Virus record (IMG/VR): IMGVR_UViG_3300025671_000325
Location: 1-30,610 of that record
Source of the DNA: a virus
DNA length: 30,610 nt
Reading direction: 5' to 3' (one strand)
Position numbers and translations under genes: made by a program. Positions 1-20,287 of this stretch are shown piece by piece. Positions within the stretch are counted from its first letter, which is position 1. Every line of letters begins with the position of its first letter. The notes below the pieces were generated by a model, which was not told the DNA's origin, did no database searches, and saw nothing but the letters and a program-made list of their open reading frames with translations.

Positions 1-708
1 CTCTTCCCAAACCTCTTTGCTTGTAGCAACGAGTTCTCCATCTGGAGAAAAATACTCACTAGCAGCTACATTGACATTATAGCCTTCTTGTAGTGCTAGG
101 TAAGTGTAATGTATATTGCCATTGCTAAGCATCCACTCTGCTAAGGGATCATATCCGTACGGTTCGGATAACCTTTGAGCAAGCCCAGCGTTGAAAGACA
201 ATTTGTCATTAACTTTATATCTGTATCTTTGAGACGTTTCAAAGTATTTAATATCGGCAAAACCATCTTCTAAGTATTCACCTTTTAATATATACTTATC
301 ATCTACGTATCTAACAAAATGATGTTGATCTAAATACTCATCACCTTGTTGTCTTTTGTAATCTATTTCAAATAAAAATTCTAAGCCACGTACTTTACCT
401 ACATTAGCACCGTCTGACCATGATTCCTCTGTACCATCATAAAATGTACTAGCTCTGTTTTCATAACCAAATCTAGCTATTTTACGTATACCTAAAGCTA
501 AGTTATAATCGTATGGCGTTTTTACCGTTACAGTTTCTAAACCATTAGTTACAGAAAATACATCTACATCTGATATGGAGTTACCACCATTGGCTGCAGC
601 GTAAAATGTAGCAAATTTAAAATACTTTTTAAAGTTTTGTGAACAACACTCTTTAGGTGCCGCGCAAGCAACTAATGTTATACACATTATTATTATTAGT
701 TTTTTCAT
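1..708 (-). CDS. Lipoprotein-like exported protein, C-terminus beyond the window
   Basis: The frame is open from an ATG at 706-708 to the left edge (236 codons visible), so the gene is partial. The N-terminus has two Lys, a hydrophobic stretch and a lipobox-like L-V-A-C ending at Cys15, as in a lipoprotein signal peptide. Two more Cys follow at residues 21-22. The mature part is rich in Tyr, Phe and alternating polar/hydrophobic residues, for example RYRYKVNDKLSFNAG, which recalls strands of Bacteroidota outer-membrane barrel proteins. The ATG overlaps the TGA of the upstream 2378-residue gene as ATGA, which suggests coupled translation and late expression. I do not recognise the family. Roles in superinfection exclusion, lysis or the virion are all possible. 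The reading frame and signal are clear; the function is open. Confidence 0.75.
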   Translation of the reverse strand, partial: MKKLIIIMCITLVACAAPKECCSQNFKKYFKFATFYAAANGGNSISDVDVFSVTNGLETVTVKTPYDYNLALGIRKIARFGYENRASTFYDGTEESWSDGANVGKVRGLEFLFEIDYKRQQGDEYLDQHHFVRYVDDKYILKGEYLEDGFADIKYFETSQRYRYKVNDKLSFNAGLAQRLSEPYGYDPLAEWMLSNGNIHYTYLALQEGYNVNVAASEYFSPDGELVATSKEVWEE

Positions 709-3700
709 ATACCTTTTAAATTAAATTTTGGTTTTTTTGTTTTTACTTTTTTTGTTTTAGATTTTGCTTTTGCTTTTGCTTTCTTTTTATCAGATTTTAT
801 TTTTTCTTTTATATCTTTCATTTTTTTAGTATCGCCAAGATTTAAACTCCAAGTTGTATAACCACTTAAAAACATTAATCTTTGTAAAGCCGTGTAATCG
901 TTATCAGCAGCGTTTCTAAGATTTATAGTTTTTTGATATATTTTGTTTGTAGGCGCTGTAGTTATAGTCTGAGTATAATTTGTAACAGCAGACCACATAG
1001 GATTATCTATATCAAATGTTTCCATTTCTTCAATTACTTTTTTGTTATAATTCAAAGTTTTTTCTGCATTAACAATTCTTCTAGCTTTAATACCTACTAC
1101 AGGTGAAAAGTTTAGCATTTCCATTATAACAGCACTTTCATCTTTGTTGTAACCTGCTTCTCTTTGTTCCATAAACTTAATTGCCATGTTTTTCAAAGTA
1201 GACACTGCAACTCCATATATACCAGAACCTCTTAATATAGTGTCTATACTACCCTGTATAACTCTTTGTTTTTTAGTTAAATAAGCTTCAACTCTTTTGT
1301 CTTCATCTTCATCATCAGAACCAAACATAACGGCAAACAAAGCTGTTTGTAAACTATAAAATATTAAGTTTTGTGCAGCACCATAATATAATATTCTAGA
1401 CATGTTAGACATATTACTTTGCATCAGTGACGTGTTAGGTGGAGTTATTCTTCCATTAAGAATATCAGAACCTGCTTTTTTAATTATTCTATTGTACTGA
1501 GATGGTGTGTTTAAAAAATTTAATACCAACTTGCCTATCCAGCTTGCTTGTTGTTTAGATGTCATATCAGGTCTTGCAGATTGCTGAGTTGACTGTGTTA
1601 TGTCTTGAAAATCAGTAAAAGCTTTTGTTTCAGCTTCTTTTTTACTTAAACCATCTTTAATATATTTATTAACTCTATTTCTATAAAAAGCAGCACCACC
1701 AGTTGCAATTGCAATGTTATCACCGATTTGTGTAGGTAAAAAACCAAGTCTAAGAGCTTTACCAGTTATAATAGCTACTTGGTCAAATAAGTTTCCTGGT
1801 CTAGCTTTTTTAATAGCTTCTGCAAGTTCAGCACCATTAATATCTGTCTGTAAACCGCCACGTCTTTGCTTTAGCATATCTGAATTAAATATCATTGCAA
1901 AGTCTTTCCAGTATTGTGGTTGATTTGCAAAAGCTTTACCAGCTGCTAGTATATTATTGTCAGCAAAATTTAAATAGTTAACGTTAGACATTTGCTGTAG
2001 CAAAGAAGATCTTACATTTAAAAACATGACACCTGCAACAGAAGCATTTAACCAATTCATAAACATGTTTGGTTTTGAACTTGATCCTTTTGGTCTGTTA
2101 ACACCTGTTTTAATTCTGTGCAACATATCTTCTAAAGCCTCTCTAAAAGCAGGGCCGTAAGCAGCTTCAATTTTATTTAAGTTTTCTTCAGAAAACATTA
2201 TATCTGCATTTTCTTGAAACTCTGCAAAGTAACTAGCTCTACCAACCCTACCAGTTGCATCTACCAAGTCTATTCTTATGTTACCACTTTCCCAGCTTGG
2301 GCCTGGGTCTACATATGTTTCTTGTTTAGATATTATATTTAATGTATTTGCATAAGACTGTAGATTACCATCAGATTTTACTAGCTCAACTAACTTAGCT
2401 TGATCAACTTCGCTCAAACCAGGTATTTTGTAACCATGCTTATCCCATAGATATACTCTTATCGCGTCTTGATATGTAAAATCACCATCTGGTGTTTTTT
2501 TAGAAAGCATTTTGTTAACCTCAGGCATTTGTTTATTTAAAGCTTTATAGTCGTTTGCTACAGCTTGTTTAGCGGTGTCTACCTCTTTATATGCCCTGTT
2601 TAATGGTCTAACTAAAGCTTGTTCAAAAAAGTTTCTATGCGCGTCGCCTTTTTTTCCTTTACCCATAAAGTTGTAAAGTAAACCTACAAAATCCTCGTGA
2701 GATGGTGGTATAAATAATCTAAACTTACCCTTGTCAGCGCCACGTTTTCTTGCTTTAGTTCTTTCAAAACGTTTAAAAGATTCGATACCTGTAACTTCTT
2801 CTAGTATATTGTTAAAATCATCACTCATTGTTTTACTAAACTTAACTTTAGCTTGTTGAACTTTTGACTTAACATCAAATTGATCTAACATGTTTTTAAC
2901 AGCTTGCACGTTTTGCAAAGCATCATCAGCAAAGTAAAAGTCGTTAAATCCTTCACCAACTTTATCAGCAACCCAAAGTGCTTTTGCCTCTGCTGTAGAA
3001 TTACCTAGACCAGTTATATTTTTTAAAGGTATATTTAAACCATTAGCTTTTAAAAAGTCAAATATAGCTTTTTGTGCTTGTGGTGGTCTTGCTGTTAATA
3101 CAAACATGTTTTCAGGACCAAACTTACCCTGTAGTTTTATCGCCTTATTAAATAGTGGTGCTAACTTACCTTTTACAACTTTGTTAAAGTCAGAAAAATC
3201 AAATACATAACCAAGGTCTAATAAGTCTTCGTATGTTTTAGCATACTCTTCAGCGTTTAAAGTACCAGTAGTACCTTCAGGTGTTGTGTATTTAACTAGC
3301 GATTTAGTTGTGGCTAGTGTGTCGTCAAAATCTAAAACAGTAATACCTTTAGGTTCACTAACTGTTCTTGAAGCTCTAATAGCTTTGTTTATTTTTTTAG
3401 TCTTACTTATATTTTCTTTTATAGGTAGTGCTTTACCATTTTTATTTGTATTAAAAATTTCTTTAAAAGTTCTACCGTCTAAACCTATTATTGAGCTAGG
3501 ATCTATAGAAGCAACTTCTTCGTTAAAATATCTTTCCCACCAAGAATTACTTATAACGCTCCAGTCTTTAGGCATTTTTGTTCTAAGTCCAGCTGCTATT
3601 AATTTTTCGTCCATAGCTTTGTCTAAGTATATTAACTTGTAATTATCTATAACTAAATCATAAGAAGCTTTAAAACTAGATGATTTTGACAACGAAGAGT

Positions 3701-6700
3701 CTATTAAATATAAATAAGCGGCTGTTGCTGGCATAGCGTGTTCATACTCTACTTTTAAACTACCAGATTTTGTAGGTGTTAATTTTTTAGAATAACCAAC
3801 AAACTGAGCGCCCATTTTATGCCAATGCTTAGTATCGTTACCTGTTATTTTTAAATAATTACCAATAACTCTAGCTGCGTTTTTATCAATTTTACCATTT
3901 TTATTTATTGCTTTATCAAAACGTTTCCACATTTCTTTATGTATTAAAGCAACTTTTTTATTCCACTTTTCTATTTCACCGTTATCAATATTTTTTTGTA
4001 TTGTTTTTTGGTTTTTAAATATTGTACTATAAGAAGATATTGAAAAATCAATATCATTACCGTTAGCATCTTTTATAGGTTTTCCAAATACAACTCCTTC
4101 TTTATCACGCAGCTTTTTTATTGCAGGAACATACAAGTTATTGTATAAGTTTTTATACTTTTCTTTTAAAAATTTATTATCACTTTTTCCAACAACGTAA
4201 TAACTTGGTGTAAATACAGTTCCACCACCTTTACCAAACCAAAAATCTTTAGGCATTAAAGGTAACAAGTCTTTTTCTATAACTTCTACAAGTTGTTTTA
4301 TACCTTCTTCTGTTTTTAAATCGTAAGTAGCTTCTATACCGTGAAATTTAAAAAGCTTGTCAATAACTTTGCCTTCTTCCATTTCAAACTGATCTCTAAC
4401 GCTAATTATATCTTCAACAGTTTTACTAAAAGCAGCTTTGCCCTGTGCGGCTGTAATATCAGCTGTTTGTTGTTTTAAAGCTTTTTGCTCTTGTGCTGGT
4501 GCTACTTTAGTTTTAGCCTCTAAAAACCTTTGAGCTCCAGATATAGCCGCGTTTATAGAGTGAACCTTAGCAACGCCTTTAAGTAGCTGTCCGATGTCCC
4601 TGCTATACACACTCGCCTCGTTTTTCGGCGTAATACCTAAGTCTTTTTTAAACTGCTCTACAATTTCAGGTGTTGGATTTACAAACTGCGGTTTTAGTTT
4701 TTTTACTTGTGTTTGGCTTGTTAGCCCTTTACTTCTACCTTTTGGCGATGTAATCTCACCAGTTGGGTCTGTGTAATTTTCGTAGAAATAATCTAGTGGC
4801 AAACCTTTCAAGCCAATAGCATACCCATATGTATCTCTTGACACATCTAAGTTTTCACCTATTTTATTTATATCAGCAGTTTTATCAGTTACATTATAAA
4901 GAGGTAGTGTTTTGATAAACTTATCCGCATTATTTGGCGCATTAAAAAATCTTTGTATATTCTGAGCTTCAGCTGGTACTGGCATACCTTCAGTATACTT
5001 TGTAACAGCGGCTAGGTTAGCTCCTCCTTCCATAATTTTTTTAGCAGGAACTTCAAATATTAACTCTCCTACTTTACCAGCATACTTAGATATTATGCTT
5101 TTAAAGTTATCACCTTTAACGACTTTAACTAAAGATTTTATTTTATCAGCTACTCTGTTTGCTATAGCAAAGTCTTGTAGTATATTTATTTTTTGTACAA
5201 ATGTATCTTCAAGATTTGTTGTAGTACCAACGTCACCTTCTATTTGTTTAGCTTCTTTTGTGTCAATGCTAGTTGTTTTGCCATAAGTTAAAGGTTTAAC
5301 TTTTTCGTATATAACCTGCCGTTTAGGTTTCATGTTAGCAATAACAAATGTTGAAAAAGCACCGTCCTTTTTGTTATATCTTTTTATAATACCAGGTAGA
5401 TATGTCATTGCTTCAGCAACAACATCTTCTCTAGCTATATCACCTGTTCTAGTATCGTAATTTAAAGCTTCTTTCGATAAAGCTAATAATTCAAACTGAG
5501 GTGCTAAAGCTTCGTTAGCCTCTTTAACTCTTTGTGGGTTTTGGCCTCTTTGTATTATTTTAACTAATTCTTCAGGAGTTTTTTTAGAAAGTGTTTTAGA
5601 TAAACGTTCACCACCACCTGGATCTTCAGTTGCAAAAGTTTTTGCTCTATCACTAATTTTGTTTTTCTTTATATTAGTAGAGTAGTCTTTTATAAAGTTA
5701 AAAGCTTGTCTTGCGTTACCAAATTCTTTTCTATATAAAAAGTCTCCTTCTACAAAATAACCAGCTTCGCTTAGTTTTCTTAATACATCTTCTAATACGT
5801 TTTTAATTTTTCCAAACACACCTTCGTTAAACTTGTAACCATCTTGTATTTCATCTGATAAAGAAGTAAATAATTCTTCTGTTTCAAAAACAGCATCACC
5901 ATCTATTTGATAAGAAAGTTTAAGTCTTTTTAAAACTCTCTGTTTACCATCTTCATCTAAAACGTCTAGCAAATCTTTGTTAAGTTTTATTTTAGCTTCT
6001 TTATCAAGTTTGTTGTAAGAGTTACCTATAATACCATGTAAAAGCTCATGTGATCCAACGCCAATAGCTCCAGTTTCTCTAGCAACCTCAGTGTTTATGT
6101 AATAAGTTTTACCGTCTTCACTAATAGCACCATCAGATTCTTCTTCACCAGGGAATATTTTTCCAAACTCTTCTTTAGAAACTTCTTTCTGCTCAATACC
6201 TATTTCTTCTGCAGCTTCTTTAGTTCCTTCTAATCTTGTAGTTAGTAATTGCTCTTTAGCAGTTTCGTTTATTAATTCTATTCTTTCACTTAAAACTTTG
6301 TCTTTATCTGTTAAACTTTTTAAAGCAAATCCTCTTTCTTGTTTAGTAAGATCTCCATTTTGATATTGATCTTGTATTTTTTGTATTTTATCTTTTATAT
6401 TGTCTTTTTCTTGCAGTATATTTTCTAAAGAAGTTTTTTGCTCATCTGTAAGTATTTCTTTTATTTTTCTTTTTTCATTTATATACTTTTTAAGATCTTC
6501 TTTTGATTGTTCTAATTTAGCATCAACTTGATCTTTATACTCTTGAGGCTTATTTTTATAGTTATATTTTAAATTGTTAAGCGTAGCATAGTCGTTTATT
6601 TTTTTATTTAACTCTTTAACGCTAGCATTGTCACTTCTTAATGCTCTACCTATAAACTTACTACCAGCACCAACACCTGCAGAACCTACAAATCCCATTA

Positions 6701-7841
6701 AATAGCTTTCTAAACCTTCCTCGCTAGTCATAGTGTCCCACATAGCAGCAATAGCTTCACCAGTGCTTTTTTGCTCTGCATAAGCTCGGCTCATAGCCTC
6801 TATACCGCTTTGCCCCCACTCTGTTAAACCTTCTCTATTACTTGATAGCAATAGTTTAGCTGCTAAAGTAGATTTACCTGCATTACTAAATATATACTTA
6901 GTAACACCTTTAAGCCCAATGTACTCTAAGCCAGTAGCAAATACACCTAAAGCGGTTGGTAAAGCTAAATCTACTTCGTCGTTATCTATTAACTTATCCA
7001 TAGCTTCATCATTATCGCCGTATAAAGTTCTAGCTTTAGCCTCATTGTAATCAGTAAACATAGGCGCTATAATTTGAAAAGGCAAAGAAACACCACCTGT
7101 TGCTAAAGCTGGAAGCGCAGTTTCTATCATAGCTGTATTAGCTCTAAAAATACCACCAACAAAATCAGACAAATCACCTTGTTTAAAACCTTTTACAATA
7201 CCTTCACCAGTATCTTTAATAAGATATTTGTCAACAGCTTTCATTTCTTTGTACTGTCTTTTCAAAAACTCGTTAGTTTGTTGTTTTGATTGAGCAACAC
7301 CAGAAGAGTCGTAATTTTCAAGAAATTTTATTCTATCAGCATTGGTTTTAAAACCAGTAGGGTCTGCCGTAGGACTTTCGTAAGAGGCTGTTGGGTCTAA
7401 AGTTTTTAAATAATTTAGCTCTTCAGGATCATAATCAACATCAGTTTGCATTCTTTTAAAAAACTCACCACCAAAAGCAGGTATCTTATTTACTAAAAAA
7501 CTTTTAAATCTAGTTGGAATATTTTTAGTTTCATTTATTAAAACTTCAACAGTTTCTTTTATTTCTTCTTTGTCGGTAAAAGCATCTTTAACCATTTTAA
7601 AAGTATTGTCTATACCCACAAAAGCTTTAGCTTTAAAACCAGGTATCAAATCTTGGCCAAGAACATTGGGAGAAACAACGTTTTTAAAAGCTTTTTCTCT
7701 TTTAACATCTTCTGGATCTGGCGCTTTAGCCAAGCCCTTACCTTTCATGTCAGACATAAAAGTGTTAAAATCAAGATCTTGCTTTTTAGCAAATCCTTGA
7801 AGCTCTTTTAATGTATACTGCTCTTCTCCTAATTGATACAT
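705..7841 (-). CDS. Giant polyvalent, probably ejected virion protein (2378 aa)
   Basis: This multidomain protein is likely packaged and ejected with the DNA. In order it shows: hydrophobic segments near residues 234-266, 289-317 and 378-400; a charged coiled-coil region at about 400-537; an HELLH zinc-metallopeptidase motif (H598, E599, H602) with candidate third ligands E655/E656; a sigma-70 region-2-like stretch at about 780-850 (EDVVAEAM at 805-812, then FSTF from F829); an unassigned middle; a HAD phosphatase-like domain with DFDDT at 1504-1508, T1583 in VLTARPP and D1639-D1640 in FADDA; a region at about 1920-2135 resembling the large-polyvalent-protein-associated domains of phages; a hydrophobic segment near 2148-2172; and a Lys/Ala-rich tail at 2340-2378. 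SKT motifs recur at 748, 1139 and 1669, between modules. It lies 3 bases after the 520-residue gene and ends in TGA within an ATGA overlap. The polyvalent architecture is family knowledge (Iyer and colleagues); ejection is inferred. Confidence 0.75.
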   Translation of the reverse strand: MYQLGEEQYTLKELQGFAKKQDLDFNTFMSDMKGKGLAKAPDPEDVKREKAFKNVVSPNVLGQDLIPGFKAKAFVGIDNTFKMVKDAFTDKEEIKETVEVLINETKNIPTRFKSFLVNKIPAFGGEFFKRMQTDVDYDPEELNYLKTLDPTASYESPTADPTGFKTNADRIKFLENYDSSGVAQSKQQTNEFLKRQYKEMKAVDKYLIKDTGEGIVKGFKQGDLSDFVGGIFRANTAMIETALPALATGGVSLPFQIIAPMFTDYNEAKARTLYGDNDEAMDKLIDNDEVDLALPTALGVFATGLEYIGLKGVTKYIFSNAGKSTLAAKLLLSSNREGLTEWGQSGIEAMSRAYAEQKSTGEAIAAMWDTMTSEEGLESYLMGFVGSAGVGAGSKFIGRALRSDNASVKELNKKINDYATLNNLKYNYKNKPQEYKDQVDAKLEQSKEDLKKYINEKRKIKEILTDEQKTSLENILQEKDNIKDKIQKIQDQYQNGDLTKQERGFALKSLTDKDKVLSERIELINETAKEQLLTTRLEGTKEAAEEIGIEQKEVSKEEFGKIFPGEEESDGAISEDGKTYYINTEVARETGAIGVGSHELLHGIIGNSYNKLDKEAKIKLNKDLLDVLDEDGKQRVLKRLKLSYQIDGDAVFETEELFTSLSDEIQDGYKFNEGVFGKIKNVLEDVLRKLSEAGYFVEGDFLYRKEFGNARQAFNFIKDYSTNIKKNKISDRAKTFATEDPGGGERLSKTLSKKTPEELVKIIQRGQNPQRVKEANEALAPQFELLALSKEALNYDTRTGDIAREDVVAEAMTYLPGIIKRYNKKDGAFSTFVIANMKPKRQVIYEKVKPLTYGKTTSIDTKEAKQIEGDVGTTTNLEDTFVQKINILQDFAIANRVADKIKSLVKVVKGDNFKSIISKYAGKVGELIFEVPAKKIMEGGANLAAVTKYTEGMPVPAEAQNIQRFFNAPNNADKFIKTLPLYNVTDKTADINKIGENLDVSRDTYGYAIGLKGLPLDYFYENYTDPTGEITSPKGRSKGLTSQTQVKKLKPQFVNPTPEIVEQFKKDLGITPKNEASVYSRDIGQLLKGVAKVHSINAAISGAQRFLEAKTKVAPAQEQKALKQQTADITAAQGKAAFSKTVEDIISVRDQFEMEEGKVIDKLFKFHGIEATYDLKTEEGIKQLVEVIEKDLLPLMPKDFWFGKGGGTVFTPSYYVVGKSDNKFLKEKYKNLYNNLYVPAIKKLRDKEGVVFGKPIKDANGNDIDFSISSYSTIFKNQKTIQKNIDNGEIEKWNKKVALIHKEMWKRFDKAINKNGKIDKNAARVIGNYLKITGNDTKHWHKMGAQFVGYSKKLTPTKSGSLKVEYEHAMPATAAYLYLIDSSLSKSSSFKASYDLVIDNYKLIYLDKAMDEKLIAAGLRTKMPKDWSVISNSWWERYFNEEVASIDPSSIIGLDGRTFKEIFNTNKNGKALPIKENISKTKKINKAIRASRTVSEPKGITVLDFDDTLATTKSLVKYTTPEGTTGTLNAEEYAKTYEDLLDLGYVFDFSDFNKVVKGKLAPLFNKAIKLQGKFGPENMFVLTARPPQAQKAIFDFLKANGLNIPLKNITGLGNSTAEAKALWVADKVGEGFNDFYFADDALQNVQAVKNMLDQFDVKSKVQQAKVKFSKTMSDDFNNILEEVTGIESFKRFERTKARKRGADKGKFRLFIPPSHEDFVGLLYNFMGKGKKGDAHRNFFEQALVRPLNRAYKEVDTAKQAVANDYKALNKQMPEVNKMLSKKTPDGDFTYQDAIRVYLWDKHGYKIPGLSEVDQAKLVELVKSDGNLQSYANTLNIISKQETYVDPGPSWESGNIRIDLVDATGRVGRASYFAEFQENADIMFSEENLNKIEAAYGPAFREALEDMLHRIKTGVNRPKGSSSKPNMFMNWLNASVAGVMFLNVRSSLLQQMSNVNYLNFADNNILAAGKAFANQPQYWKDFAMIFNSDMLKQRRGGLQTDINGAELAEAIKKARPGNLFDQVAIITGKALRLGFLPTQIGDNIAIATGGAAFYRNRVNKYIKDGLSKKEAETKAFTDFQDITQSTQQSARPDMTSKQQASWIGKLVLNFLNTPSQYNRIIKKAGSDILNGRITPPNTSLMQSNMSNMSRILYYGAAQNLIFYSLQTALFAVMFGSDDEDEDKRVEAYLTKKQRVIQGSIDTILRGSGIYGVAVSTLKNMAIKFMEQREAGYNKDESAVIMEMLNFSPVVGIKARRIVNAEKTLNYNKKVIEEMETFDIDNPMWSAVTNYTQTITTAPTNKIYQKTINLRNAADNDYTALQRLMFLSGYTTWSLNLGDTKKMKDIKEKIKSDKKKAKAKAKSKTKKVKTKKPKFNLKGI

Positions 7842-12052: not shown

Positions 12053-15000
12053 TTATATTACAAATTCAACGTCTGAGCTAAAATAACCTAAGAAAAAAGC
12101 TTCACCTTGTGAAGACCAATATGGACTATTTGTATCATTAGTTCCATAAGCTTGTTGAAACTCATTTACCCTACTTTGGCTACCTAAGTGTATTTTAACA
12201 CCGTTACCATTACCACAACCTTTAACATATAACGCCGCGCGACCTGTGTATGGAGCTGTGGTTCCAAACGCTATTGGATTAGCAAAATTTTGCGCAAACT
12301 CAAGCCGCCAATTTGGACCAATATAAACATGTTCAATATCATCAAGGTTTATTAAAATAAGTCTAGTATTACAATAACGAGTTAGACCTGGCGGGTTGTT
12401 GTAATAAGCATTTCCAGATCCTGGTGCGCTTCCATCCCAATAAAAAATAGTATTCTCACCTAATCTAGCCATAGTATAATTACTACTGCTCCAAGAATTA
12501 CCACCACCACCACCGTAATTAGGATCAAAATATCTTGGATTAGTTGGAGTGCCACTAAGTCCACCCATTCCTTGTATATTATCTGGAACATAAATACCAT
12601 CAGACCACGACGTAGCGTGTGGTGGGAAATGTTGTGTAGAGCCAGTGCTATAGCTTTTTGGTCTAGTCACGTTACCACTTCCATCATCAAAAAGACCATT
12701 TACTTGAGCAATTAAATCCCAGTCTAGATAAGAATAACCATTACCATGATCTCCATAACCACCCTGCGTTGTTGTTGGAATAAATGTTTGAGCACTTGCA
12801 TATCCATTACTTCCACCACCACCAATATTAGTGGTACCTACTCCAGCAAAACTTGAATAACTGTGGATATTTTCATTTGTAATTATAACAGAGTGCATGT
12901 AAGGATTGTTGTCTCTATCTACTTTTACAGTACCTACACCACAGTCAGTCACCTCTATAGTTTCTCCTAAGTTCCAGTTTAACAAATCTAAAGTGTTGTT
13001 TGTTAGATTATTTAAAGGCAATGTTTTAAAAGATATTTGATACATCATTGTGTTTTGCCAAAATAATGGTAGCATATCTAAATTGTAGTAAGTGCTTGTG
13101 TTATCTGTTTCGCTATGTATAAAATCAGATATATTTTGGTTGTGAATAACAAGTCTTTCAAAAAGTGGTTGTAATGCAAAATCTTGCATACCTGTTAAAT
13201 CAGAAATATAATCACCATCTTGCCTTGTCTGCGTGCATAAGTGTACGTCGTCGCCAAAACCAAGTATTCCACCACTATACGTCATGTTAGCTTGAGAACC
13301 AATATACAAGCCTATTGCCAAGCCATACGGGTTTGTTAAGGTTGAAAAAGCTTCAGAGCAGCAACTGGTATTATCGTCCCAACGAGTAACTCCTAGTGTT
13401 AATAAATTACCATCTTGAGTTGAAAAAACAATGCCAGGCGCAGTAAAACTCGCGGCTTGCATTCCACTTACATTTTCTTCTAAACACTCCTCAAAAACAC
13501 CATCAGGAACGTAAGTTTCTATAATACTGTTTCCATTCCAAGGTAAGTTTGCTAAAGCAGGAGTTGAAGCTACTGTCAGGGTTCCAGCTCCATTACCAGT
13601 CAAACCGCAAAAAGATACAAGGGCAGTATTACAATTATTACCATCATCACAAGTTGGACAACAAGGTAAAAGACCAGGCACACCTGGATCTGTACCTATC
13701 CAACAATCACCTGTAGTGCCGTCCCAAGGCACATAAGCCCCGCCAGCAGTGTCATAGCAATCAACGTTAGGCACTAAATAATTATTAGCTGTAGTGTCTA
13801 AACACCCATCAATACAACACATGCTAATATCATCATCAGTTGCCCAGGGCATGTAATTTGAATTAGTACTGTCCATACAGCCTTTGTATATACAACCACA
13901 ACCTTGAGCAGCATTACCAGCCCAATTAGCGTTTAATGTTGCATTATCAGCAGCAACGGTAATTGTATTACCATAATTTGAGTTATAAAGTGGATCCGTA
14001 GGGTTATTACTACCTGTCACATCTGTGTAAGTATAAGAGTTAAAAGGAGTATAACTACTAACAGTGCAAGGAAGTATTTCAAGTGGATCTAATTGTGAGT
14101 TTGAACCGTTGTAACTTGGCCAAACGCTATAACCCGATGCGTTCATTGTAGTTGTTGCTAACGTACCATCATCTAAACATGTTTGACTTATAATATTTCC
14201 ATTAAGGTCGTATCTAGTTCCATAGTAATAGTATGGTAAACAACTACCATCGTCACAATCTACTGTAGGATCGTAATTCATTGCGTAAACATCGCTCTTA
14301 CAGCCAAAAGTACCTACACATGCTGGGCAAGCAGCCTGAGCAGCAGCTAGCGTTGTATATGCACCACTACCAGAAGTGTTTACTTGTGTTCCACCACTAA
14401 CAGTGTTACAGTCCCAAGAGTCTACCCAAAGACAAGTACCCGGTATTGTTGCGTTAACGTTGTAATTTGAAGATGCTATTCCGCTTGGTGAAAACTCGTC
14501 CATACAACCTTGATACTGACATGAACCATCATCTGTAGTTGCAGCATACACTGTTCCGTTAGGATGTGTAATATAAGTTATACCGTAATAAGAATTTGCA
14601 TCAGTACAACCGTCATACGTGCAACTACCATCATCAAAGTTAATTGTAAGTCCACCGTAATTATTTGCATTTGGATCCATACAACCAGCAACTATAGGTG
14701 GCAAGCCAACAGCCACACCTAGACCCTGTATGTGAAAATCACTAGCGTTTAAAGTTTGTTTTGTTAAGTATTCTTCTTTACCTTTTATGTAATTAAACCA
14801 TTTACCTTCTTTTTTTACAAAATCAGTTACTCTACCTTTTTCAAGATCTGTTGATATAGCTGTAAGATTCCAGCCTTTTACTTGTTCTAAATTATAAAAA
14901 CCTACATTTGCATTTGATTGTACATCTGGATCTGCAACTTCTTTAACTATTCTAGCTTGACTACCTTCGTAGTTTATAGTTTTAAAAGATTTTACAGTAT

Positions 15001-18000
15001 CAGGAGCATCGTTTAATAAAAACTCTACAGTAGAATTAACATGGGCACCGTAAAAAGTATTTCTAGGTACAGTTTTATCGTGGTGCTTCCAAGGTATTGA
15101 ATTGTAAAAAGTATAATATTTGTTTTCTACACTACCGCCTTGCTCTAAAATAAAAGACTTAAAACTAGTCCAACCAGTAACAGATTCATTAAAAGATAAT
15201 GTTTCTCCACTACTCTTAAAACACAAGGTGTCTCGCAGGGTTAAATTATAATCTTTTTTATTAGCGTCAAAAGAACCAATAAGAAGTTCGTAAACTGGCA
15301 TAGCTTCTTGAAAATAGTTAGACATGCCATACTCAGATATTGGTGTTAAACCATCTTTAGAAAGTCTAAGCACAGCGCCTCTTTGTTTATCTGTAAAATA
15401 AGCTCTATAGTTATCTACAGCAAAGCTTTCTGGGTTTTGTGATATACCAAAATCACCAGCAAAAGGCATTGTTTGGCCAAGAACATTTTCTGTTGCAATT
15501 AAATTAGGATTTCCATCAGCGTTAAAGACAGCATCTTTATTAGCTTGTATTCTTATAACTCTATCTTCACAAAAAGTAACTAAATCAGTATTTCTGCTAA
15601 ACAACTTTTGTATACTACCGTAGGTTGGATTTAAATCTTTAGTTATTTTTTCTGCTTGAATAAATTGATTTAAACTGTTAATACCACTTGTTGAATTATA
15701 TAAGCCAGAGTATATCAACCCACTTGATCTTCTTTCTTGTTCATAATGCTCATCTGTCGTTGTTGAAACTTTAACACCTTTGTCTATAATAACCTGGTTA
15801 AAGTCATCTCTTAATCTATTAGACTCTACACCGTTACCAAAAGAATAACAGTTAAACCAAGAAAGACCAACAACACCAGTAGTACCAAACACAAAATACG
15901 CTACTTCATTTGGAAATAAAGGTACGTTTGAAAAGTTTAAAGTAGGTGTGGTTGAAAGTGGAGTGTACCAATTACCGTTTAACGTTGTAAAAGTTCCATT
16001 TGGCCTTGTAAATACAAGCTCCGAAGCTCCGGAAGGTTGAGCACGTAAAGGAGTGTTAAATTTTATTAAAACATTACCGTCTTGGTCTTGAGTAAATCCA
16101 GTTACTATAGTTCTTGTGTTAAAATCTAAAAGTAGTGGGTGTGTTTTACACGTTACTACAGATCCTAGCGGTACTAACTGCTCTGCAGTTTTAATATTAA
16201 ATTTTGTCGGAAATATACTACCTGTAGAATAAAACAAATCTAAATCAATACTTTCTTTAGGCTCTGTTTCAAATATAGCTGGATTAGAACTTCTTACAGC
16301 GTCATTATCATCATCAGTTCTTTGCTCTAAAAATTGTATTGTTATGGGGTTTTCATTTGCACCAACCGCGCAAGCGTTTTGATGTGGCGCTGTAACGGGT
16401 ACTGAAGAAATAGTAGATCCAATTGCACTCTCAACATTTATATCTTTATCTATTGGTATTTTATAAGTTACCCTTCTATTAGTTGGATAGCAAAATTGAA
16501 AATAAAGATTATTGTATTTACCTCTTAAACCAGCATCACCTTCTAAACCTGGAGATCCAGGTACTGTAGCAGACCAACTGTCAAAAGCGGCTTCAACTAT
16601 AGACCAATCAGTGTGGTTATATTTTCTTTGCTTAGTTATATTTACTGTACTAGATATTGTGTAAATAACCTCGTTGACATCACCAACAAATTTAAATTTA
16701 GCACCAGGAGTAATACTGTTTACAACATTGTTTTGATCAACGTGATCTGGGTTTGTGCTAGATCCTACTGCCCATATATAGTTTTCATTAATATCGTTAT
16801 AATTAATCTCACGCTGCAAAGTTCCATAATTACTAATAGGTTCGCCAAGACCAGCTCCTCCAACAAAAGGAAGTATTATAGAGAAAGCTAAATCTATATA
16901 GTTTTGCCCATTTTCTTCGTATATACCTCTTCCATAATTAAAACTACTATTAGAATTTGTAACGTGCCCTGGATCTGAAATGTTATTACTACTTGAGCTA
17001 GGATGCGTTCCAGCGTAATAAGTTTGGTCTATAAACCAATTACTAACATAGTTAGTTGAATTACCAGGTGCAAAATCCATTAAATTACTCCAGTCTCTAG
17101 GCCCATCAGCAGATTCAAAACCTGAATTTGAGTCACCAGCGCTGTAGATAGTGCCAGGACCAACGTTAGGTAATACGTGTGGATTAACGTTTGAAGAAGT
17201 GTACTGTTCCCATTCTGCTGGTGCTGTGGAAGCAACAGAGTGTGTTGTACCTTGAACTATATCTGGGGCACCTGTGTCAGAAAGATAAAAAGTTGATATT
17301 GACTCTACAACTTCGTATTCTTCTACAGACGAAGCACTCGTGTTTAAAAAAGTATCTGCTATAGAATCACTATTAATTTTTACAAAAAATTTACCATCAA
17401 ACTCTGGTTTTACTCTTGTTATAGCTTTGTAAAAACGAATTTTAAGACCTGTAACAAAACTTGTTGTACCGGTGGAATACATCCAGTCTTCTGTTGATAA
17501 TATAGGAGTTTCTAAAACAATAGAAAAAATTGATGTATCATTAGAAATATTTACAACATTGTATTTTTTAGAATATCTACCAGTAGTGTCTTTAAAATCA
17601 AACTGCATGTTTTCTTTTATATCTGATAAATCAACGCTAGATTGCGTAGACCATGAAAGTATATCTATTTCAAAAGTCTTAACACCTGGGGCCAAAGCAT
17701 TACTAACACCGTTAAAAACAGCGCTATCACTTTGTGCTAATAATCTTTTTTTAGTCTTTAAAAATTCAGGAGCTTCATTTTCTATTGCAATTATTTTATA
17801 TTTAGCATTATTTTTTACTAAAATATCTGAATCTGCTCCTTTTTTTAATATTAAAAAAGTTTCTTCATCAACTTTGTTTCTTTCAGATGAGGGAAATGAC
17901 AACCATAAATTACCGTCTTCTGCTTTGTAAACTCTATCTAAAGCTAAGTTATAGTATTCGTTGGCAGTTTCTTTAACATATATTTTGTAATTTTTAGCCC

Positions 18001-20287
18001 AAGCAGGTGGTGAAGTAACTAATTTCGCTGTTAATTGCGTTGAGTTGTCTGCTTCGTTTTTACCTAAAACAACAGTTGACTTGCTACTTGAAAAAACAGG
18101 TGTTTCTCTATTATACTCGTCTAAATAAGTAAATCCTAACTGATAACTTCTTATACTTTTTAAAGACTTTGCTGGTCTTAGATTTTCTATTAAATTTTCT
18201 TTTATTCTAGGGAAGTTAAAACCATCGAAAGCAAGTCCAATGTCATCAAAATAAGTGGAGTTAAACAAAACTTTTTTTGCATAATTATTATTTTCAATAC
18301 CTCTAGTCCATCTATCTGTATAGTCTGCTACTAATTCAGGTTTTTCATACGCACCAGTTTCTTCGTTGATTATATTGTAGTTTTGAACGTAATTACCATA
18401 TACAATTCTATTACCAGTAACTTCTTGTGCTAAAGCTTTTCTAGGTACGTTATCCCACTGTCTTAGTGTTTGATTTTCTGGAACAGCATTAAATATTATA
18501 TCAGACTTTACCATGTATTGATTAGCGTGCCAATTATTAAAACCTTCTACTGAGCTAGATATAAAAACTGTTTTTAAATCATTATACCTTAACTTATCTA
18601 CAATGTAAACTATAGGTGAATTTGACTCAGAATATAAAATATCAACTTGAACAACGTCATTAGGTATATTTTTAGAAACAATATTTCTTAAATTTATAGT
18701 TGTTAAATTGTTTTGCATAGCTTTGTTATAAGCTAATAAAGAGTCATATTCAAAATAAGAAGGTTCAAACACAACGTTAGTAAATGGTGAAAAAGTAGAA
18801 TATTCACCATCTTGATATTTCCATCTATAACCAAATCTAACAAACTTTTTTTCAAACAAGCTGTCTGTGTCTAATAACCTAACAACGTTAAACTCGTTTA
18901 TAGTAGAGTTGTAAGGCCCAGAGCTAATGTCAATAGGTGTTGTTGAAGAAATACTTAATATTTCTATTTTATAAGTGTTAACTGGCCAGTTAGCACTTGT
19001 ATTTCCAACTTGCTGCCCACTTAAATTTTCTAACACTTTACATCTAACATCAAAGTTATTAGGTAAACTTAATAAAGAGTTTATATTTAAAAATCTTAAC
19101 TCTTCATTTTCTAAAAAACTACTACCATTAGAAAATTGTGTAAACTTTACAACAATTTGTGTCCCAGGAGAAGCTAATTGATAGCCACCAGACCCATCAT
19201 CTTCTGTAAAGTTATGATCAGAAACAGCTGAAGTTAATTCTTCAGACTGTTGTTCTATATCAATTTTTTCAACAGGAGATTTTTTTATTACTGTGATGTT
19301 TTCTTCTTCAACTAATATATCACTACTTAAATCTATATCTCTATCAGGGACAATAAGCTTTGTAGCTGTGTTACCACCTGAATCAGTACCAGCAATACTT
19401 CTTGTAATATTTATTTTTTTAGGTTCTGAATTATTATCAGTAAAAAGAAGTAGATTGTCAATAATATTAATACCAGTTATTATATTGTCACAATTAAAAT
19501 TTAAAAGTCTTGGTTTTACAAAAACTAAATAATTATAATCTTCAAGGTCTGATCTAACCCACTCAGCACCAGGACTATTTGGATATGAAAGATCTTCTAG
19601 GTCAGTTAAATTTTTATCAAATCTTACTGTAGAGTTAGCGTGATCAACATAAGTTACTTTTCTTGAAATTATTTTTTGCCCAGCAACCATTTCGTTAATA
19701 GCTATATTTCCAATAGTCACACCACTATGACCAGCTGCCGCAAAGAAATAACAATCCATACCTTCGTACACCCCTACTGTGCTTTTTACAGCGTAGTCAT
19801 AATTACCTAAATTTAAACCATTACCTCCAATTGTATTTCTTGTAAAATCAAAATAAGTTTTAGTTCTAAAATTATCAACAAACACAGGTGTTACAGTATC
19901 GTTTTGTATTTTGTATATTCTATCAGTCCACGTGTAGCTTTCAGGCGCGTCATATAAGTAGTTAACGTCTCTCCAGCCTATAACAGTGTTACCGCTAGCA
20001 TCATAAATTAAATCACCTGATTTTTGACTAGAAGCAAAGTAGTATAAAGAATTATCTTTTTCATTAGAAATAGTACCAACACAAACAGAGTCTGGAGCAA
20101 CACTGTTTGTTAGATCAATAGAAACTTCGATATTACCTAATACGTTTTCAACTGCTCCAACATCAGAGCTTTCTGATGTAGAAACTTGTATGTTTAACGC
20201 ATCTCTATATTGACCTACAGGCACTAATCTTTCATCAAGATCTTTATTCATTTTACCAGCAGTGAAATTATTTTTAATCTCCGGCAT
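12053..20287 (-). CDS. Giant tail nozzle fused to Cys-rich adhesin-like region (2744 aa)
   Basis: The N-terminus (residues 6-51) has NNFTAGKMNKDLDERL and then GQYRDALNIQVSTSE, a start I associate with nozzle-type tail proteins of marine and crAss-like podoviruses. The body is beta-rich. Residues about 1590-1830 contain VIRIQANKDAVFNADGN, NPESFAVDNYRAYFTD and DGLTPISEYGM, which look like the conserved end of that nozzle. Residues 1868-2227 then hold a run of Cys modules (GCMDPNANNY, DDGSC). Beyond about 2300 the chain is Gly/Ser/Tyr-rich and ends in a compact beta region, probably the distal host-contacting part. T7 gp12, the classic nozzle, is only about 790 residues, so this protein is greatly enlarged. 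It follows the adaptor gene by 3 bases. Nozzle identity is probable; receptor binding is inferred. Confidence 0.7.
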   Translation of the reverse strand: MPEIKNNFTAGKMNKDLDERLVPVGQYRDALNIQVSTSESSDVGAVENVLGNIEVSIDLTNSVAPDSVCVGTISNEKDNSLYYFASSQKSGDLIYDASGNTVIGWRDVNYLYDAPESYTWTDRIYKIQNDTVTPVFVDNFRTKTYFDFTRNTIGGNGLNLGNYDYAVKSTVGVYEGMDCYFFAAAGHSGVTIGNIAINEMVAGQKIISRKVTYVDHANSTVRFDKNLTDLEDLSYPNSPGAEWVRSDLEDYNYLVFVKPRLLNFNCDNIITGINIIDNLLLFTDNNSEPKKINITRSIAGTDSGGNTATKLIVPDRDIDLSSDILVEEENITVIKKSPVEKIDIEQQSEELTSAVSDHNFTEDDGSGGYQLASPGTQIVVKFTQFSNGSSFLENEELRFLNINSLLSLPNNFDVRCKVLENLSGQQVGNTSANWPVNTYKIEILSISSTTPIDISSGPYNSTINEFNVVRLLDTDSLFEKKFVRFGYRWKYQDGEYSTFSPFTNVVFEPSYFEYDSLLAYNKAMQNNLTTINLRNIVSKNIPNDVVQVDILYSESNSPIVYIVDKLRYNDLKTVFISSSVEGFNNWHANQYMVKSDIIFNAVPENQTLRQWDNVPRKALAQEVTGNRIVYGNYVQNYNIINEETGAYEKPELVADYTDRWTRGIENNNYAKKVLFNSTYFDDIGLAFDGFNFPRIKENLIENLRPAKSLKSIRSYQLGFTYLDEYNRETPVFSSSKSTVVLGKNEADNSTQLTAKLVTSPPAWAKNYKIYVKETANEYYNLALDRVYKAEDGNLWLSFPSSERNKVDEETFLILKKGADSDILVKNNAKYKIIAIENEAPEFLKTKKRLLAQSDSAVFNGVSNALAPGVKTFEIDILSWSTQSSVDLSDIKENMQFDFKDTTGRYSKKYNVVNISNDTSIFSIVLETPILSTEDWMYSTGTTSFVTGLKIRFYKAITRVKPEFDGKFFVKINSDSIADTFLNTSASSVEEYEVVESISTFYLSDTGAPDIVQGTTHSVASTAPAEWEQYTSSNVNPHVLPNVGPGTIYSAGDSNSGFESADGPRDWSNLMDFAPGNSTNYVSNWFIDQTYYAGTHPSSSSNNISDPGHVTNSNSSFNYGRGIYEENGQNYIDLAFSIILPFVGGAGLGEPISNYGTLQREINYNDINENYIWAVGSSTNPDHVDQNNVVNSITPGAKFKFVGDVNEVIYTISSTVNITKQRKYNHTDWSIVEAAFDSWSATVPGSPGLEGDAGLRGKYNNLYFQFCYPTNRRVTYKIPIDKDINVESAIGSTISSVPVTAPHQNACAVGANENPITIQFLEQRTDDDNDAVRSSNPAIFETEPKESIDLDLFYSTGSIFPTKFNIKTAEQLVPLGSVVTCKTHPLLLDFNTRTIVTGFTQDQDGNVLIKFNTPLRAQPSGASELVFTRPNGTFTTLNGNWYTPLSTTPTLNFSNVPLFPNEVAYFVFGTTGVVGLSWFNCYSFGNGVESNRLRDDFNQVIIDKGVKVSTTTDEHYEQERRSSGLIYSGLYNSTSGINSLNQFIQAEKITKDLNPTYGSIQKLFSRNTDLVTFCEDRVIRIQANKDAVFNADGNPNLIATENVLGQTMPFAGDFGISQNPESFAVDNYRAYFTDKQRGAVLRLSKDGLTPISEYGMSNYFQEAMPVYELLIGSFDANKKDYNLTLRDTLCFKSSGETLSFNESVTGWTSFKSFILEQGGSVENKYYTFYNSIPWKHHDKTVPRNTFYGAHVNSTVEFLLNDAPDTVKSFKTINYEGSQARIVKEVADPDVQSNANVGFYNLEQVKGWNLTAISTDLEKGRVTDFVKKEGKWFNYIKGKEEYLTKQTLNASDFHIQGLGVAVGLPPIVAGCMDPNANNYGGLTINFDDGSCTYDGCTDANSYYGITYITHPNGTVYAATTDDGSCQYQGCMDEFSPSGIASSNYNVNATIPGTCLWVDSWDCNTVSGGTQVNTSGSGAYTTLAAAQAACPACVGTFGCKSDVYAMNYDPTVDCDDGSCLPYYYYGTRYDLNGNIISQTCLDDGTLATTTMNASGYSVWPSYNGSNSQLDPLEILPCTVSSYTPFNSYTYTDVTGSNNPTDPLYNSNYGNTITVAADNATLNANWAGNAAQGCGCIYKGCMDSTNSNYMPWATDDDISMCCIDGCLDTTANNYLVPNVDCYDTAGGAYVPWDGTTGDCWIGTDPGVPGLLPCCPTCDDGNNCNTALVSFCGLTGNGAGTLTVASTPALANLPWNGNSIIETYVPDGVFEECLEENVSGMQAASFTAPGIVFSTQDGNLLTLGVTRWDDNTSCCSEAFSTLTNPYGLAIGLYIGSQANMTYSGGILGFGDDVHLCTQTRQDGDYISDLTGMQDFALQPLFERLVIHNQNISDFIHSETDNTSTYYNLDMLPLFWQNTMMYQISFKTLPLNNLTNNTLDLLNWNLGETIEVTDCGVGTVKVDRDNNPYMHSVIITNENIHSYSSFAGVGTTNIGGGGSNGYASAQTFIPTTTQGGYGDHGNGYSYLDWDLIAQVNGLFDDGSGNVTRPKSYSTGSTQHFPPHATSWSDGIYVPDNIQGMGGLSGTPTNPRYFDPNYGGGGGNSWSSSNYTMARLGENTIFYWDGSAPGSGNAYYNNPPGLTRYCNTRLILINLDDIEHVYIGPNWRLEFAQNFANPIAFGTTAPYTGRAALYVKGCGNGNGVKIHLGSQSRVNEFQQAYGTNDTNSPYWSSQGEAFFLGYFSSDVEFVI
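13607..14686 (-). repeat. Protein-level array of about six DDGSC/GC-D Cys modules
   Basis: Within the nozzle protein, residues 1868-2227 contain about six diverged units. They begin with GCMDPNANNY (C1869), GCTDANS, GCMDEFS, GCKSDVYAMNY, GCMDSTNSNY (C2137) and GCLDTTANNY (C2162), and several end in DDGSC. Similar CTDPxAxNYxPxAxxDDGSC modules are common in Bacteroidota secreted and surface proteins. The units are too diverged to form a DNA repeat and no unit is identical at the base level. Confidence 0.8.

Follow-up and report, generated by a model that had tools for sequence, protein, structure and literature searches.

What is the function of the 2378-residue protein, here called P0001, that is encoded as one frame in IMG/VR virus record IMGVR_UViG_3300025671_000325? 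The window analyzed, i.e. the whole 30,610-nucleotide stretch at positions 1 to 30,610 of that record, carries on its minus strand (705..7841) an open reading frame (ORF) of 2378 codons with an ATG start and no internal stop; the plus strand over 705-7841 is dense in stop codons. All coordinates below refer to the window, and all features for which they are given lie on the minus strand. We lean slightly towards reading P0001 as virion cargo that is ejected by a podovirus with a crAss-type muzzle and that would process itself through a zincin domain, dock on RNA polymerase through a module resembling region 2 of sigma factors (sigma2) and heal 3' ends with a HAD domain. The identities, order, conservation and exchange of these domains were established by computation, and so was the finding that the N-terminal domain has a homologue with a near-identical copy detected in virions. 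The host is presumably a marine member of the Bacteroidota, as judged from the phage's relatives.

A large family with a standing architecture

Searches by name told little about P0001. Pfam gave only matches below the cut-off for the whole protein, and PHROG gave none; tblastn against 50,697 phage records returned no match, nor did tblastn of parts of relatives L041 and L088 against phage records. Searches of the PDB with P0001 (phmmer), with a six-member profile, A1 (hmmsearch), and with a profile of the C-terminal core, A7, yielded nothing useful.

IMG/VR yielded six close relatives, and a search with the six-protein alignment confirmed at least 448 of the 598 stretches examined, of which the best 80 were retained for family analysis. 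The C-terminal core is present in 84 ORFs, which together with P0001 make 85 proteins; 81 are uncut at the N-terminus (P0001 included) and 78 are complete at the C-terminus, with lengths of 2032-3448 amino acids. These counts are of sequences rather than independent lineages, and near-duplicates are among them (e.g. L041, L044, L046, L048 and L051). In the six-protein alignment, residues 1495-2344 are highly conserved and residues 1-1490 very divergent, with H598, E599 and H602 invariant. A PHROG of unassigned function (phrog_32588) matches four of 17 scanned members, at best with 1.1e-53. When the model of the zincin-to-HAD stretch was compared with a viral structure library, only A0A218MLT5 and A0A218MMX7 matched below an E-value of 1e-3 (5.8e-9 and 1.8e-4, respectively). 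Both are "uncultured virus" proteins, one named UDP-N-acetylglucosamine kinase and the other uncharacterized, so members of the family are probably already in UniProt.

A sequence-only reading of the window had described a single uninterrupted frame with a HExxH motif, a HAD domain and a Lys-rich tail inside the virion gene cluster. All of this was confirmed, the cluster setting also by homology of the N-terminal domain to proteins encoded at the same position in isolate phages. The same reading had found the mix of domains impossible to match to a described protein. P0001 indeed lacks a Pfam or PHROG name, but the mix of zincin, sigma-like and HAD domains is not a one-off: it is the standing architecture of a large family.

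Pfam was run on whole proteins (17) and on variable regions (sets of 29 and 26), covering 72 of the 85 proteins. A lysozyme domain was found in one relative (L027, residues 20-149, 2e-14), and a transglycosylase SLT domain in one of the 17 whole proteins. Such muralytic domains suit proteins that must pass the cell wall. Zeta_toxin/AAA_33 occurred in two proteins and DUF5763 in three, and weaker single matches were to PT, Spectrin_SYNE1, DUF1885, EFF-AFF and the tape measure family TMP_3.

N-terminal domain, zincin domain and link to virions

An iterative profile of residues 181-485 was run for six rounds against 90 proteins, namely the 85 giants and five giants encoded at the same position in isolate phages. 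It reached 42 of the 90, including four of the five isolate proteins, while the 540 controls, which were either reversed or shuffled, gave no match in any of the rounds. Flavobacterium phage elemoF gp18 was matched from round 4 (9.6e-36), and phi13:2 gp127 (4.6e-25) and Panino CDS0069 (1.2e-15) from round 5. The stretch common to the isolate proteins corresponds to residues 257-475 of P0001 (6417..7073), a probable ejection or virion domain.

The fourth isolate protein is gp101 of Cellulophaga phage phi38:1; its gene and the phi40:1 gp101 gene share 99.7% identity. The record of phi40:1 gp101 states "annotation based on experimental MS/MS proteomics analysis", MS/MS being tandem mass spectrometry; the evidence used here is this annotation, not the spectra. 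Three of the isolate giants are annotated as structural, one of them via the near-identical protein detected by MS/MS. The Panino protein is annotated as a tRNA methyltransferase and the MW202828 protein as a reticulocyte binding/rhoptry protein. These observations support packaging of a protein with this N-terminal domain in a distant relative, the mass spectrometric evidence covering that relative and not P0001. The available parts of PMC7077304 and PMC8776804 contain no virion proteomics of the giant. In PMC13288928, on phi38:1 infection and virion proteomics, the available part does not contain "gp101", and its gene numbering differs.

The zincin-like metallopeptidase domain occupies residues 556-700 (5742..6176), with the motif H598-E599-L-L-H602 at 6036..6050. 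HExxH lies upstream of the core in 78 of the 81 N-terminally uncut proteins, and the other three (L023, L043 and L045) have HDxxH. Both motif histidines and a downstream glutamate are invariant in all 55 aligned relatives (two alignments), the first glutamate being aspartate in three. The invariant downstream glutamate follows HExxH by about 50 residues and is E656 in P0001. The AlphaFold2 model places predicted helices at the motif and at this residue, i.e. HEXXH with a Glu in a later helix, which is the zincin signature given for polyvalent proteins in the available part of PMC5512222 (section 8). Among the isolate giants, the zincin profile reaches those of elemoF and MW202828.

The sigma-region-2-like module

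Between the zincin and HAD domains lies a module (residues 753-849; 5295..5585) that PDB-profile, profile-profile and fold comparisons relate to sigma factors, none of them significantly by itself. Iteration of a profile built initially from five related sequences extended it to 79 of 83 variable regions, with E-values calculated for a database of 85. Profiles taken at three rounds of this iteration matched none of 830 shuffled, 83 reversed or 85 core sequences. Two matches arose in the 328 other ORFs of the loci: the cut relative L002, and L045 4567-6231, the latter with the seed profile only (1.1e-4). The module is thus found in 79 of the 81 N-terminally uncut proteins; it is absent from L058 and L075, and the other two misses are cut proteins. 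It starts 128-359 residues after HExxH in relatives, and the order zincin, sigma-like module, HAD holds in 79 of 79.

Two profiles were compared with the 177,635 sequences of the PDB; they came from separate alignments with overlapping members. For that of 44 modules the top match was a sigma factor (8x6g_H, E 0.42), with RpoE in fourth place (E 2.4). For that of the zincin-to-HAD stretch the top match was likewise a sigma factor (8b3z_A, E 0.18), with RpoS in fourth place (E 0.93). In profile-profile comparisons the query was region 2 of six Escherichia coli sigma factors (RpoD, RpoS, RpoH, RpoE, FecI and FliA). The three best scores among 61 sliding windows fell on the module (32.1 and 25.1 in alignment A6, 26.6 in A4), and the best window not touching it scored 15.2. 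The best window probability was 80 in A6 (P0001 residues 719-854) and 48 in A4, with none in A5; the reversed sigma query against a 79-member alignment gave 0.6. The profile alignment brings a YxPxxGxxLxxY pattern of the module into register with RpoD around FSTYA. At the expected module site of L089, a 3229-residue frame, whose identity as the giant is assumed and whose position was worked out by hand, has a PF04542 match below the cut-off (12.7 bits, E 0.007).

The AlphaFold2 model of residues 555-1500 has a mean predicted local distance difference test score (pLDDT) of 80.7. All 50 rows of its VIA fold comparison are sigma factors, as identified by title and chain convention. The best is SigB, 8x6g_H (Z 8.3, root-mean-square deviation 3.0, 89 residues), spanning model positions 199-295, i.e. 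residues 753-849. Three rows carry UniProt-type mnemonics that we take to denote SigH, SigB and SigD. By count, 39 of 50 Foldseek rows were either sigma factors or the sigma chains within initiation complexes, and several phage sigma factors were also in the viral structure-library list.

The fold of the module, as modeled, is probably that of sigma2. It does not amount to a complete sigma factor: P0001 has no Pfam match to region 4, and the positions of RpoD W433/W434 are replaced. The sequence-only claim of a sigma region-2-like part holds with these limits and the further ones set out below. That the module derives from the phages' own sigma factors is an origin we considered and found unsupported.

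HAD domain and the exchangeable slot before it

The HAD phosphatase domain (residues 1495-1652; 2886..3359) carries D1504, D1506, T1508, T1583, K1620, D1639 and D1640, that is, the DxDxT, T/S, K and DD motifs. In 73 aligned cores, T1583, R1585, K1620, D1639 and D1640 are present in all 73, D1504 and D1506 in 70 (two gaps, one change) and T1508 in 71 (two gapped rows). In the VIA comparison of the core model (mean pLDDT 74.9), all 50 rows are, by their titles, HAD folds or structures containing one. The top structure is T4 polynucleotide kinase/phosphatase (Z 7.9, root-mean-square deviation 3.2, 120 residues), and the Z values of some further structures are lower by at most 1; Foldseek found no significant match for the core model. 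A slice of P0001 meets PF11019 (DUF2608) at the cut-off, with 22.6 bits. The HAD profile matches all 85 giants; that the isolate giants also possess the HAD-containing core was rejected (0 of 5).

Upstream of the HAD domain lie a module termed mid1 (residues 930-1140; 4422..5054), also found in 17 other relatives, and a slot that differs between phages (residues 1140-1490; 3372..4424). In P0001 and 43 others (44 of 85 proteins) the slot holds an EHxxP motif (E1367; window 3729-3743), which may mark an unrecognized enzyme. P0001 has no P-loop motif before its HAD domain. In L050, L057 and L066 such a motif lies about 190 residues before the core, backed by the Pfam families AAA_33/Zeta_toxin in L066 (2.8e-14) and L057 (1.4e-8), and by the motif only in L050. 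The PHROG "polynucleotide kinase" (phrog_415) matches three of 17 members, the search not showing which stretch is matched. L005, L006, L007 and L039 display a PD-(D/E)xK-like signature in the slot, by pattern only, and the slots of L006 and L007 had no Pfam match over the cut-off. As a separate observation, L066 (residues 1895-2339) and L076 (1846-2290) have a 445-residue insertion between the HAD and helical domains, with no Pfam match over the cut-off.

C-terminal domain, tail and mosaicism

The conserved C-terminal domain (residues 1666-2345; 807..2846) spans about 680 residues, is almost all-helical and accompanies the HAD domain in the family. Foldseek found no significant structure match for it. 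Its earlier assignment as a large polyvalent-type region (LPD38) is not supported: PF18857 had no match in the window even at an E-value of 10, a null result that is weak because the control matched nowhere, and no LPD family appeared in the Pfam scans of P0001 and relatives. Of the structure searches, VIA returned the HAD and sigma2 folds; Foldseek found nothing significant in the PDB. The tail (708..809) contains 17 lysines in the last 34 residues, and 33 of the 78 complete relatives have at least 35% Lys plus Arg there.

Two loci reveal the mosaic nature of the giant gene. In L003 and L004, respectively, the core is 93% and 87% identical to that of the window phage and the following gene 92% and 90%, but giant residues 1-1480 are only 29% and 22% identical (best aligned stretch), and the upstream virion genes are 28-57% identical or undetectable. 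By these identities, the boundary between exchanged and retained DNA is inside the giant ORF, just before the HAD domain.

RNA polymerase and sigma factors of related phages

Transcription genes were sought in 16 long contigs of relatives (51-72 kb), which are possibly fragments. The beta' model PF04997 matched none of the 16 (control, 14 of 14 genomes), although crAss-type polymerases may escape it; the T7-type RNA polymerase model PF00940 also gave no match, its control not working. Eight of the 16 contigs have PF04542 (sigma region 2) in a separate ORF of 243-254 amino acids at an E-value of 0.01 or better, six of them over the cut-off. Four of these standalone sigma factors, when scanned alone, all matched regions 2 and 4; the cut-off was exceeded by one of them for region 2 and by one for region 4. 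Because no contig has a beta' match and half of them carry a separate Sigma70_r2 ORF, the relatives' phages appear to depend on the host RNA polymerase plus their own sigma factor, and under such conditions it would be sensible to inject a sigma2-like binder. The standalone sigma factors L101-L108 are about 250 residues long and contain regions 2 and 4. Several have ...HSQVLDYL or ...HSQVIDYL at the C-terminus, which to us recalls the clamp-binding tail of T4 gp55.

Proposed function and alternatives

It is proposed that virions contain the giant and deliver it into the cell together with the DNA or before it, its N-terminal domain being part of the ejection apparatus. Cleavage of the polypeptide by the zincin, most likely as self-cleavage, would then let the parts come apart in the cytoplasm. 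The sigma2-like module may dock on the beta' clamp helices of the host RNA polymerase, the normal site of sigma region 2. With the promoter-melting residues missing, it would be unable to start transcription alone; it could displace or hold back the host sigma factor, or keep RNA polymerase attached to the DNA as it enters. By removing 3' phosphates from nicked DNA or RNA, the HAD domain would repair damage by host nucleases. The slot before the HAD domain is exchangeable between phages, holding the EHxxP module here and a P-loop kinase-like domain or a nuclease-like signature elsewhere. Packaging and ejection of P0001, its self-cleavage, RNA polymerase binding and the substrate of the HAD domain are what we infer. 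By analogy with N4 gp50 and the crAss001 cargo, a multi-tool ejected protein appears the likeliest reading. More tentatively, and with confidence short of even, we suggest that in a family of marine phages a virion-borne, stripped sigma region 2, which would retain the part that binds RNA polymerase and have lost the residues for promoter melting, and which is joined to a protease and an end-healing phosphatase in an exchangeable multi-enzyme protein, might hold the host RNA polymerase before any phage gene is expressed and later hand over to the phage sigma factor.

A number of results weigh against this proposal. On the side of the virion, the phi38:1 gp101 match (9.1e-7, in round 6 only) is the weakest of the four isolate N-terminal matches, the sigma-like module and HAD were undetected in all five isolate giants examined, and the link to a protein detected by mass spectrometry covers no family member with either part. 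As to the module, none of the sigma matches of the PDB profiles is significant alone, and unrelated chains are ranked in between; whole-alignment profile-profile probabilities were 28 (A2), 15 (A6), 8 (A4) and 0.1 (A5 and A7), and the 59 obtained for the 79-member alignment is counted low. Windows over the module in A5, the one of three alignments without a signal, scored at most 13.1, which is background. Pfam Sigma70_r2 missed the module in the window and in all 44 modules scanned singly. The promoter-melting tryptophans (RpoD W433/W434, region 2.3) are replaced in 79 of 79, with seven Phe and one Tyr in the second column, and alignment of the module with region 2 of the phages' own sigma factors had a probability of 1.4. 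At a Z of 8.3, which is modest for helical bundles, small ones can match through their arrangement alone, and no Foldseek match in the PDB had an E-value below 1e-3. Finally, the contigs behind the polymerase argument may be incomplete, and RNA ligase PF09414 was found in none of the 16, so that RNA repair is not favored.

Some of these points would fit an ejected protein whose sigma-like module is a mere helical bundle for folding, packing or unfolding during passage, the zincin and HAD domains doing the work. We consider this somewhat doubtful. A bundle of that kind would be small, invisible to single-sequence Pfam and silent in A5, as the module is, and it would need neither melting residues nor alignment to the phages' own sigma factors; it would not readily account for two PDB profile searches that both put sigma first, for structure rows that are sigma factors throughout, or for the FSTYA register. 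P0001 could also be a structural protein of the internal core or tail, with the zincin as a maturation protease and the HAD domain as a scaffold in assembly, and homologues are indeed annotated "structural protein", while P1 DdrB is processed prior to packaging according to the available part of PMC5512222 (section 8). This is unlikely in our estimate, given that the full HAD catalytic set is conserved in 70-73 of 73 cores, that muralytic or kinase-like domains are present in some relatives, and that modules are exchanged strongly, unlike in a scaffold.

Quite unlikely is a reading in which the ORF is produced or packaged in more than one piece, the HAD-plus-helical block being effectively a gene of its own that has been joined to a variable virion protein at the recombination point. 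The two halves are fused in one frame in 80 of 80 relatives uncut upstream, which indicates that the fusion is maintained, although the search for relatives began from a fused alignment and may have missed unfused cores; what speaks for a separate gene is that L003 and L004 keep the core and the next gene while the rest of the giant and the genes upstream diverge. The self-processing, ejected cargo protein is the reading we prefer among these.

N4, crAss-like and phiKZ-like phages bring a polymerase into the cell, and T4 brings the modifying enzyme Alt. Early seizure of the host RNA polymerase by phages that lack their own is known for few models. If the proposal is true, a pre-made, virion-borne sigma2-like clamp binder would be another route to the host polymerase, and it predicts binding to beta'. 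Since the family is large (at least 448 of 598 IMG/VR stretches) and exchanges modules at a fixed slot, it could serve as a catalogue of early-infection activities in marine phages.

Gene neighborhood

The large genes of the window all run in the same direction. They begin with TerL (30474-28660), portal, an acidic scaffold-like protein, the major capsid protein (MCP) and three more proteins, followed by a muzzle-like tail protein, four genes, the giant and a signal-peptide-like protein at the window end. TerL and MCP were named by similarity; the portal and the scaffold-like protein were named by position relative to the relatives' annotation and by eye. In a similarity search TerL matched 87 records and MCP 85, from phages of Flavobacterium, Cellulophaga, Maribacter and Tenacibaculum (the last for TerL only), one environmental genome being the sole exception. 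The muzzle-like protein (2744 residues; 12053..20287) matches PF25729, crAss_MUZ_C, with 31.8 bits (cut-off 27); its C-terminal half is Cys-rich by eye, and it aligns to phi38:1 gp97 (2e-48) and elemoF gp22 (1e-47). The protein at 9411-10394 matches PHROG 6121, "virion structural protein" (9.4e-9), and nothing in Pfam at an E-value of 0.01; near its end is SDRRLKENI..., which to us recalls S74 intramolecular chaperone domains.

The gene following the giant (1..708) is cut by the window end, resembles a signal-peptide or lipoprotein gene by eye and is co-conserved with the C-terminal core. In relatives it encodes a secreted or lipoprotein-like protein of about 350 residues, conserved together with the core, and in some a different lipoprotein-like protein of 182 residues takes its place. 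A role in superinfection exclusion is only a guess.

Comparison with known systems

Polyvalent proteins, as described in the available part of Iyer et al. 2017 (PMC5512222), resemble the giant in joining many unrelated domains in one polypeptide, in the zincin hub, in nearby packaging genes and in predicted injection. P0001 has at least two disparate activities (zincin, sigma2-like and HAD) and portal and terminase genes nearby. Unlike polyvalent proteins it has no LPD38 match (the control gave none) and no Pfam family over the cut-off or PHROG, and the word "sigma" is absent from the main text of that paper.

Sigma70 family region 2 is alike in fold and profile over about 60-95 residues; by contrast, the module of P0001 is embedded in a giant protein, has no region 4 by Pfam and shows the W433/W434 replacement throughout. 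T4 polynucleotide kinase/phosphatase shares the HAD fold and catalytic residues, with a P-loop before the HAD in three relatives but not in P0001. Encoded at the corresponding position, where the virion cluster ends, phi40:1/phi38:1 gp101 and elemoF gp18 share the N-terminal domain, and elemoF gp18 the zincin as well; the sigma-like module and HAD were undetected in them. No sigma-like domain in an ejected virion protein was described in the literature searched, which consisted of titles and the beginnings of abstracts and included few subscription papers. A survey of jumbo phages (PMC7824862) covers, in its available part, sigma factors encoded by phages and kinase-HAD repair enzymes, not virion-borne ones.

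Muzzle-bearing Bacteroidota phage crAss001 stores large helical proteins in its capsid and tail (cargo gp45-gp50), which are thought to be extruded on infection (PMC10172136, available part). That cargo includes RNA-polymerase-associated proteins, whereas the contigs of our relatives gave no PF04997 match. The N4 virion RNA polymerase gp50 is, according to the available part of PMC12633501, likewise a giant ejected protein: its N-terminal domain is of the membrane type, a HExxH domain is present, and its large helical C-terminal domain has no structural relatives. It carries a whole RNA polymerase, whereas P0001 has a sigma2-like module and a HAD domain and no polymerase domain by Pfam. N4 injects a polymerase; if our reading is true, the giant family would inject a handle on the host polymerase together with an end-healing phosphatase, both set free by the zincin.

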